Shown in pieces: positions 36,649 to 38,900 of a DNA stretch of 45,160 nucleotides. This stretch comes from Microbacteriaceae bacterium (GTDB lineage Bacteria > Actinomycetota > Actinomycetes > Actinomycetales > Microbacteriaceae). Location: assembly GCA_025464895.1 (NCBI GenBank), contig JAODMG010000130.1, forward strand, positions 1-45,160, given 5' to 3'. Positions within the stretch are counted from its first letter, which is position 1. Each line of letters begins with the position of its first letter. A program made the position numbers and the translations under genes. Below the pieces are notes generated by a model. That model worked only from the letters and a program-made list of their open reading frames with translations, made no database searches and had not been told where the DNA came from.

Positions 36649-38304
36649 TTAGACGCTTTCGGTGAGCCCTCCCGAACGGTCGAGGGCCAGGGTCGTGGTG
36701 AGGCCGAGCCTCGCGAGGAACGCGTCGTCGTGGCTGACCACGATGAGGGCGCCGCCGTAGGCGCGGAGAGCATCCACCAGCTGGTCGATGCTTCGCAGGT
36801 CGAGGTTGTTGGTCGGTTCGTCGAGCACCAGCAGCTGCGGCGGAGGATCCGCGAGGAGAAGACGGGCGACGGCGACCCGGAATCGTTCGCCACCGGAGAG
36901 GCTGCCGACCAGACGTTCCACCGTTGCGCCCCTGAGCAGGAACCGGGCGAGCTGGTTCCGGATGATGCCCGCGGCGACGCTCGGCGCGGCGGACTGTACA
37001 TTCTCGAGCACCGTCCTGGTGTCGTCCAGCCCGTCGAGACGTTGCGGCAGATAGCCGACGCGGTCGGTCAGGAGCACCGCGCCGGTCCTACCTGGCAAAC
37101 GAGTGCTGCCCGGCAAACGATCCCGGTCCGGCAGCCGGTGCTGGCCGGGCTGCAGCTCGGCGCCGTAGACGAGCGCTTCGAGCAGGGTGGTCTTGCCGAC
37201 GCCGTTCGGGCCGACCAGCGCGATCCGTTCCGGACCCTGCAGCACGAACGACCGGTCCCCGTCGTACAGCTCCGCGATCCGTCGTCCGTTCGCGACATCC
37301 GGATCGCGGAGGTCGACGTGGATGCGCACCTCCTCGCGCACGCGCGCATCCGCCGTGTCGAGCGCCGACTGTGCGGACTTCACCTTATGGTCGAGCTCGG
37401 TGCGGAGCTTTCCCGCCGACACCTGGGCCTTGGACTTCTTGCCATTCATCACAATCTTCGGCATCCGCTTGTTCAGGTAATCCGTGCGCGCCTTGGTCGA
37501 CCGGTGGGCCAGCTTCGTCTCGGCCTCGATGCGCTGCCGCTTCTCGGTCTTCACGACTTGCTCTGCCGATCGTGCGGCCTGCACGGCGGCGGCCTGTTCC
37601 TGGTCGAGGTGTGCGCGCCACTCGCTGTACGGACCGCCGAAAACGGTGAGTCGGCCGAAGTGCAGCTCGGCCGTGTCATCCATGATCTCGAGGATGGCCG
37701 TGTCGTGACTGACCACGACGAGAGTGCCGGGCCAGGAACGCAGCATCTCGGCGAGCCTGGCGCGGGCGTCCCGGTCGAGGTTGTTGGTCGGCTCATCCAG
37801 CAGGGTGATCGACGCGCGCCGAAGGCGCAGACCCGCGATGGCGACGAGCATGGTCTCTCCGCCGGAGAGTTCGTCGACGCGCCGATGGAGGTCGGCCGCC
37901 GTCAGCCCGATGTGGCGGAGCGCGTCGTCGGCCCGCGTTTCGACGTCCCAGTCGTCGCCGATGGCGTCGAAGTGCCGCTCGGAGACGTCACCGTTCTCGA
38001 TCGCGCGCAGGGCGGCGACTTTGTCGGCGATGCCGAGCAGGCCGGCGACCGTCGCCGCGGTGCCGAGGGTGAGCGTTTGCGGCAGGTAGTCGACGTCACC
38101 GGAGGCGATAACCCGCCCCGTCGTCGGCGTCAGCTGCCCGGCGATGATGCGCAGCAGGGTCGATTTTCCCGACCCGTTCGTTCCGACCAGGCCGGTGCGG
38201 CCGCCGCCGAATGTGCCGGTGATGCCGACGAGTGCGGTCGAACCATCAGGCCAGGTGAGGCCGACATCGGACAGTGTTATTGATGAGTTCTTGGGCGTGG
38301 ACAT
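36649..38304 (-). CDS. ABC-F family ATPase (possible antibiotic ribosome-protection protein)
   Basis: 551-residue cytoplasmic protein with two ABC domains and no membrane segments. Domain 1 has Walker A VGTNGSGKSTLLRIIAG, signature LSGGETMLVAIAGL and Walker B ITLLDEPTNNLD; domain 2 has VGPNGVGKTTLLEAL, LSGGERFRVAVARLL and LLVLDEPTNNLDL. Between them is a long charged linker (about residues 235-325, KTEKRQRIEAETKLAHRSTKART...KAQVSAGKLRTE), the region that reaches the ribosome in ABC-F proteins. Some members displace macrolides, lincosamides or pleuromutilins from the ribosome. An upstream leader that can sequester the Shine-Dalgarno sequence supports an antibiotic-inducible member. Confidence 0.9.
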   Translation of the reverse strand: MSTPKNSSITLSDVGLTWPDGSTALVGITGTFGGGRTGLVGTNGSGKSTLLRIIAGQLTPTTGRVIASGDVDYLPQTLTLGTAATVAGLLGIADKVAALRAIENGDVSERHFDAIGDDWDVETRADDALRHIGLTAADLHRRVDELSGGETMLVAIAGLRLRRASITLLDEPTNNLDRDARARLAEMLRSWPGTLVVVSHDTAILEIMDDTAELHFGRLTVFGGPYSEWRAHLDQEQAAAVQAARSAEQVVKTEKRQRIEAETKLAHRSTKARTDYLNKRMPKIVMNGKKSKAQVSAGKLRTELDHKVKSAQSALDTADARVREEVRIHVDLRDPDVANGRRIAELYDGDRSFVLQGPERIALVGPNGVGKTTLLEALVYGAELQPGQHRLPDRDRLPGSTRLPGRTGAVLLTDRVGYLPQRLDGLDDTRTVLENVQSAAPSVAAGIIRNQLARFLLRGATVERLVGSLSGGERFRVAVARLLLADPPPQLLVLDEPTNNLDLRSIDQLVDALRAYGGALIVVSHDDAFLARLGLTTTLALDRSGGLTESV

Positions 38305-38308
38305 GCGT

Positions 38309-38343
38309 CTCCGGAAGTGTCAGTGGAAGCACTGACTCCGGAG
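38309..38343 (-). promoter_or_regulatory. Hairpin sequestering the ABC-F ribosome-binding site
   Basis: In the minus-strand RNA, CUCCGGA GUCAGUG (loop CUUC) CACUGAC ACU UCCGGAG forms a 14-bp stem with one 3-nt bulge. The right outer arm contains the GGAG that lies four bases before the ABC-F AUG, so the folded form hides the ribosome-binding site. There is no following U-run, so it acts on translation, not as an intrinsic terminator. Confidence 0.8.
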
Positions 38344-38368
38344 CCGAGAAACGGCGGATCGACGGACG

Positions 38369-38407
38369 TCAGTGCGCGGACTGCGCGAAACCGTTGACGA
38401 TCTTCAC
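38369..38407 (-). CDS. Candidate 12-codon leader peptide of the ABC-F attenuator
   Basis: GTG-started ORF encoding MKIVNGFAQSAH, with GAGG eight bases upstream. Its last codons and stop contain GCACTGAC (38368-38375), which is complementary to the arm GTCAGTGC (38329-38336) of the hairpin covering the ABC-F start. A ribosome paused early in the leader would leave this strand free to open the hairpin. Whether the peptide is made is not shown. Confidence 0.55.
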   Translation of the reverse strand: MKIVNGFAQSAH

Positions 38408-38422
38408 CGGAGAAACCTCACA

Positions 38423-38453
38423 CTGGGAGACAAGAACCCGTCCAGCCTCCCAG
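38423..38453 (-). promoter_or_regulatory. Second hairpin in the ABC-F leader
   Basis: CTGGGAG (38423-38429) pairs with CTCCCAG (38447-38453) across a 17-base loop, directly before the Shine-Dalgarno sequence of the leader peptide. A further dyad, CCCGCTCG (38480-38487) with CGAGCGGG (38500-38507), lies upstream of it in the transcript. Both belong to the 258-bp non-coding gap. Confidence 0.5.
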
Positions 38454-38562
38454 ACGAAGCCGGGTCGCGCAATCCTTGACCCGCTCGTGCTCGCTACAGC
38501 GAGCGGGCGCCACCCAGTCATCCGGATTTGACCGGTGCTGCGACGTGCACTTGTCTGGTGCA

Positions 38563-38900
38563 ATGACGACAAATGCTCCGCACGATTTATACCTGATCCG
38601 GGATGTTGAGTCGGGCGATGCCGGGGCCTGGTCGGAGCTGTACAACGGCTATCGCGAGTTCTACGGCGTGCCGGCCGACGACGTCGCAGTTGCGACCACC
38701 TGGGCCTGGATGATCGGTCGCGAGTTCGGTCTCCGCGGTATTGTCGCCACCGACGAGCGAGGCCAGGTCATCGCGTTGGCGAACCTTCGCCTGTTCGCTC
38801 GCCCTTCCGTCGGCAGGATGGGGCTGTACCTCGACGCGTCTACGACGCGCACGCGACGGCAACACCGTGGGTGACCTACGACATGCCGCCGAAGGAGTAG
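38563..38900 (+). pseudogene. GNAT acetyltransferase with internal out-of-frame deletion
   Basis: From ATG 38563 the first about 92 codons encode a typical GNAT N-terminal half (LYLIRDVESGDAGAWSELYNGYREFYGV...ALANLRLFARPSVGRMGLYLD). Directly after, the acetyl-CoA-binding loop and following strand-helix region are missing and the frame breaks to a TGA at 38872. In another frame, 38838-38900 encodes VYDAHATATPWVTYDMPPKE and a stop, which is the usual C-terminal end of this subfamily. The gene therefore looks like a fusion of both ends after loss of about 45-55 codons, and cannot make an active enzyme. Confidence 0.8.

Follow-up and report, generated by a model that had tools for sequence, protein, structure and literature searches.

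A putative ribosome-operated translational attenuator ahead of a predicted antibiotic-resistance ABC-F gene in Microbacteriaceae

In the 45,160-nucleotide stretch of Microbacteriaceae DNA analysed here (the window), an ABC-F gene of putative antibiotic-resistance type is preceded on the minus strand by a leader that is probably a cis-acting, ribosome-operated translational attenuator, turned on by a kinetic route when a drug traps a ribosome on or close to the first codon of a short upstream open reading frame (uORF). Attenuators of this kind are known, but this form of it appears to be undescribed, and the comparison with related genomes shows that the element is real and conserved. With less confidence, we favour the view that it represents a class-wide RNA family that would read only the holding of a ribosome at the uORF start codon, through a fixed helix spacing and regardless of peptide or uORF length, and that would form a portable module also present 5' of a Cfr-like gene. 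That the ABC-F gene is under translational attenuation had been proposed in a first-pass annotation, and this part of the proposal is supported by the parts found, their conservation and the covariation of the hairpin enclosing the Shine-Dalgarno (SD) sequence.

All leader parts lie on the minus strand, directly ahead of the ABC-F gene. A tentative promoter can be read from the sequence at 38444-38472 (TTGCGC at 38467-38472, a 17-nt spacer, GAGGCT at 38444-38449); a sigma-70 consensus search of the window gave no match, and 26 of 35 homologues have a TTG..TANNNT-like pair 5' of the uORF, counted with a loose pattern and no shuffled control. The SD of the uORF (GAGG, 38416-38419), with an SD-like purine run at the same place in homologues, is followed by the uORF itself, 12 codons from GTG at 38407 to TGA at 38369 (38369-38407) encoding MKIVNGFAQSAH, which is backed by sequence and homologues and confirms the 12-codon frame with its own GAGG annotated just 5' of the hairpin. 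Within the uORF, covariation in homologues places the 5' side of a helix that we call helix A at 38391-38402 (GATCG at 38398-38402 and ACGG at 38391-38394; uORF nt 6-17), and strand 1 (GCACTGAC, 38368-38375; GCGCTGAC in nearly all homologues) contains the stop codon. There follow the 3' side of helix A (CCGTCGATC, 38357-38365), placed by homologue comparison, and a small spacer hairpin B (GCCG-loop-CGGC, 38343-38355), weakly supported by folding and alignment. The remaining parts are the anti-SD arm (CTCCGGA, 38337-38343), strand 2 (GTCAGTGC, 38329-38336), which by complementarity and pair counts can partner either strand 1 or strand 3, strand 3 itself (CACTGAC, 38319-38325) and the ABC-F SD (GGAG, 38309-38312), buried in the hairpin according to sequence, folding and pair counts.

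The ABC-F gene (36649-38304, minus strand, ATG at 38304) encodes 551 amino acids with two ABC ATPase domains and no transmembrane domain: PF00005 is matched in two stretches, the Walker A and LSGGE motifs each occur twice and no transporter membrane family is matched. The best NCBIfam model is that of ribosomal protection-like ABC-F proteins, at 303.8 bits and below its cut-off of 380, and the best solved structure is 7nhl, a lincosamide-streptogramin A resistance protein. From these matches the product is a putative ABC-F protein of the antibiotic-resistance type, predicted to act by ribosome protection. It shares 45-48% identity with proteins whose leaders are MLV or GDDDISG, from which a 100/100 branch separates it in a tree built without other ABC-F subfamilies. 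On the plus strand of the window, a divergent open reading frame (38563-38874) resembles the N-terminal part of a GNAT-type protein and then ends, with no Pfam match, and an MFS transporter gene (PF07690, 38990-40267) also lies near the ABC-F gene.

Relatives of the protein are present in 106 of 400 family genomes at E<=1e-100 and also occur throughout Actinomycetota. Upstream of them, 39 regions share one order of parts, namely an SD and a uORF of some 8-14 codons with (G)CGCTGAC where it stops, then a spacer, CAGYG and a short loop, and finally a right arm, GGAG and the start codon. The covariance model R1, which was built with helix B paired one column off, finds one copy in the window's own genome and, at E<=0.01, single copies in 54 of 400 family genomes and in 18 of 395 class genomes, other families and orders included, the weakest matches being doubtful. 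Strong matches whose surroundings were examined adjoin an ABC-F gene, with the Cfr-like gene of genome G100 as the one exception. Weak matches with E between 0.001 and 0.01 (L183-L186, L188 and L189) were taken as chance, as the adjoining stretch examined contains no ABC-F match; for L181 and L187 it contains only a partial one, possibly from divergent or truncated genes behind an attenuator. Rfam 15, searched at the gathering threshold, gave no match in the window, and the element was not found in the literature on ABC-F leaders or on leaders of Microbacterium, Microbacteriaceae or Leifsonia, which is weak evidence of novelty as subscription journals were mostly uncovered.

A different class of leader stands before the same ABC-F gene in one clade of the tree (97/94; L095, L097, L099, L105, L112, L119, L124 and L126). 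These leaders encode MEIEVDRx or MLIDEIDRA, end in TAG and are followed by a CCACCG..CGGTGG hairpin; some of their uORFs have a -10-like sequence right before the ATG, as if leaderless.

Folding of the window leader places the hairpin CTCCGGAGTCAGTGCTTCCACTGACACTTCCGGAG 30 nt past the uORF, with about 7+7 bp separated by a 3-nt bulge and a lower stem, CTCCGGA/TCCGGAG, that includes the GGAG, in agreement with the 14-bp hairpin around the ABC-F SD described before. Strand 1 and strand 2 are complementary at 8 of 8 bases, also as claimed. Dinucleotide shuffling of the 137-nt region, repeated 20,000 times, produced a hairpin whose left arm in addition exactly matches an upstream segment in 8 cases. 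When pairing partners were swapped among 30 non-redundant homologues, with 2000 permutations and relatedness only partly corrected for, the SD hairpin (strand 2 and anti-SD against strand 3 and SD) scored -20.77 kcal/mol with its own partner vs -18.15 kcal/mol with swapped ones, and none of the 2000 swaps was as good; the same test was weaker for strands 1 and 2 (40 of 2000 permutations).

Pair counts were taken from alignment A2 (22 sequences), since alignment A1 misaligns L064 and L150 past the stop, and are likewise only partly corrected for kinship. In them the anti-SD:SD stem is paired in 94% of cells and the upper stem of the SD hairpin in 93%, with exchange between U-A and C-G; one pair between strands 2 and 3 is U-A in 11 and C-G in 8 of the sequences. 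Strands 1 and 2 are paired in 94% of cells vs 18-43% in slid versions, but they vary at essentially one pair (G-U or G-C, and A-U in the window only). Covariation within strands 1, 2 and 3 had been put forward as a check on the design: it is found in the SD hairpin (2:3), whereas the 1:2 pairing is conserved but without strong independent covariation.

Absent from the earlier account is helix A, which joins uORF codons 3-6 to the segment just past the uORF stop. It is paired in 86% of cells in the same counts, and on the 30 non-redundant homologues its own partners gave -11.46 kcal/mol vs -10.34 kcal/mol after swapping, with 0 of 2000 swaps as good. In the median homologue its 5' side corresponds to uORF nt 11-17, and its letters change on both sides among relatives (TCTTCGAG/CTCGAAGA in L138, AGAAAG/CTTTCT in L149, TCGTC/GACGA in L150 and ACGAC/GTCGT in L008); the window's own version, GATCG/CGATC and ACGG/CCGT with a 3-nt bulge, is among the weaker ones. 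The competition of strands 1 and 3 for strand 2 is conserved in 36-39 relatives, but it does not involve three strands only: because helix A covaries besides them, the design is one of four segments, like that of ermC.

With regard to the uORF, its position is kept and its peptide seems not to be. Among homologue uORFs, taken by an extraction anchored on the element, 37 of 39 end at strand 1 by script and the remaining two by eye; the last codon is CGC in 32 of 33, CAC being found only in the window. The nonsynonymous/synonymous difference per site in the leader is 0.86, a ratio to be read with caution as RNA pairing lowers the synonymous rate too. The leaders of L084, L087 and L100 carry a one-base shift near their beginning, so that they read MKISTVSR..., and in each of them a new stop codon, TAG or TAA, stands exactly 8 nt ahead of the former one, whereas simulated deletions in the 33 unshifted leaders placed a stop within -12..+3 in none (0/33). 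Three changes on the ABC-F tree are required to explain these frameshifts, even if poorly supported branches are disregarded, but the three could be one gain and two losses. Furthermore, TTG ATC TGA, a frame of two codons, is what we read as the uORF in L109, L111, L113, L115 and L120. Measured from the beginning of this frame, helix A (TCGTCG/CGACGA) still starts after 10-12 nt and strand 1 is reached after 34-37 nt, distances also seen in the long leaders, which share little beyond their RNA-constrained end. The distance from the uORF start is what stays roughly fixed. The leader peptide, on the other hand, seems not to be the conserved element, given the ratio, the frameshifts with compensating stops and the two-codon uORFs; constraint on its amino acids appears weak, and it is the place where the ribosome comes to a halt that seems to matter. 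The new leader peptide noted earlier, whose conservation among homologues was to be the check, thus seems not to be the sensor.

Most likely, what the switch senses is that a ribosome has been kept on the uORF start codon or close to it. Toeprinting has established that the mRNA is covered up to about nt +16 when a start codon occupies the ribosomal P site. Without drug, ribosomes would translate the uORF to its stop in strand 1, and the terminating ribosome would cover strand 1 together with the post-stop segment, leaving strand 2 and the anti-SD arm to pair with strand 3 and the ABC-F SD. We infer that a drug at the peptidyl-transferase centre would instead arrest the ribosome on the uORF start codon or close by. 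There it would occupy uORF nt 11-17, the 5' side of helix A, and keep strand 1 and the post-stop segment free; once strand 2 and the anti-SD arm had been transcribed, and before strand 3 existed, these free stretches would pair with them, so that the ABC-F SD would stay open and control would be exerted at translation. With nascent RNA folded to the end of strand 2 and a ribosome on the start codon, the 1:2 pairing had a probability of 0.70-1.00 in 36 of 36 homologues, and with a terminating ribosome a probability of 0, by construction, as strand 1 was masked. The nascent RNA of the window also forms 1:2 without any ribosome (P=1.00), and the OFF state there should therefore depend on translation of the uORF. 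When the full-length leader was folded at equilibrium with the start-codon ribosome masked, the hairpin remained closed in most homologues (probability of an unpaired SD in the window 0.02); the switch, if working, should therefore be kinetic and set during transcription. The idea that an early stall frees strand 1 and exposes the start is thus in line with the geometry and the nascent folding, but not with equilibrium folding, and the opening would have to be kinetic.

Equilibrium folding, which favours the hairpin in all states tried for most homologues, would suit a plain SD-sequestering hairpin that sets a low constitutive translation or mRNA stability, with the uORF incidental. A uORF with its SD is nevertheless found in essentially all homologues, the stop at strand 1 is kept even after a frameshift and the spacing between helix A and the uORF start is steady, and we regard this reading as the least probable of those considered. 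Hardly more credible is a peptide-specific arrest, in which the nascent chain and a drug (e.g. a macrolide) would stall the ribosome in the manner of ErmCL, whose stalling depends on the macrolide and on the nascent peptide. The leaders of close relatives are indeed alike (e.g. KFFDGFAQSAR), but the ratio of 0.86, the compensating stops of the three frameshifted leaders, the two-codon uORFs and the dissimilarity of the long leaders all speak against it.

Transcription attenuation, whereby the hairpin or a Rho-dependent event would end transcription before the ABC-F gene unless prevented by a stalled ribosome, as proposed for Streptomyces are5sc, is unlikely. It can draw on the closest studied relatives, at least are5sc, being described as transcription attenuation (PMC12421871), and on the strength of the SD hairpin in folding. 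However, the hairpin is followed by ACGC and ATG and not by a T run, as an intrinsic terminator would be, the sole terminator-like match lies upstream of the uORF, and the conserved lower stem is the anti-SD:SD pairing itself.

Assuming that translational attenuation by a start-codon ribosome is indeed the mode of action, the device predicts inducible intrinsic antibiotic tolerance in an actinobacterial family for which literature searches found no such switch. The natural series of leaders (13 codons, frameshifted, two codons) allows one to ask whether leader attenuators of this type need a leader peptide at all, and further copies can be sought with the covariance model.

In G100, the attenuator lies 5' of a gene for a Cfr-like 23S rRNA methyltransferase (L182:150-1829, G100:C80; element E 1.8e-8; uORF MRIVLSVPASAPLSAR). 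The protein scores 370 bits to the Cfr model, below the Cfr cut-off of 550, vs 209 to RlmN, and its gene is the only Cfr-like one among 250 family genomes. From the element's own ATG, read by eye, runs another short frame, whose end coincides with the Cfr-like start; from position, our guess is that the attenuator controls this gene. A Cfr-like enzyme is another defence against peptidyl-transferase drugs, and its element suggests that such switches are exchangeable between resistance genes.

Among known systems, the Streptomyces ARE5 leaders of tiaA (MVGDDDISG) and are5sc (MLV) likewise combine a related ABC-F family with a short uORF. On both uORFs, stalling at the start codon is reported with lincosamides, pleuromutilins and streptogramin A but not with erythromycin (PMC12421871); by analogy, we infer that the first three would be likely triggers here. 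The systems differ in that a terminator/anti-terminator is proposed for tiaA and are5sc, whereas the present leader has an SD hairpin and helix A in place of a terminator, with another uORF and another RNA, and the two types of protein fall on opposite sides of the 100/100 branch. In the cplR leader of Clostridioides (uORF MRI), a start-proximal stall likewise frees the SD of an ABC-F gene, and translational attenuation alone is sufficient; that leader also has a poly-U terminator and a three-codon uORF, and by description we see no RNA similarity to the window leader (PMC10201436). For vmlR of Bacillus subtilis (uORF MIN), the ABC-F gene is described as likewise being under uORF-dependent transcription and translation attenuation (PMC9226507), but its uORF is different and the uORF sequence is reported, as quoted in PMC10201436, to matter for induction. 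With ermC/ermCL the leader would have in common that segments pair in two ways and the SD of the resistance gene is hidden until a leader ribosome stalls (PMC10219788), and the ermC-type traits seen here are a leader frame with its own SD and a main-gene SD in a hairpin, besides conserved strands that may compete with each other, to judge in silico from nascent but not from equilibrium folding; the difference is that ermCL needs its peptide, whereas the window-type leader seems to be peptide-independent.
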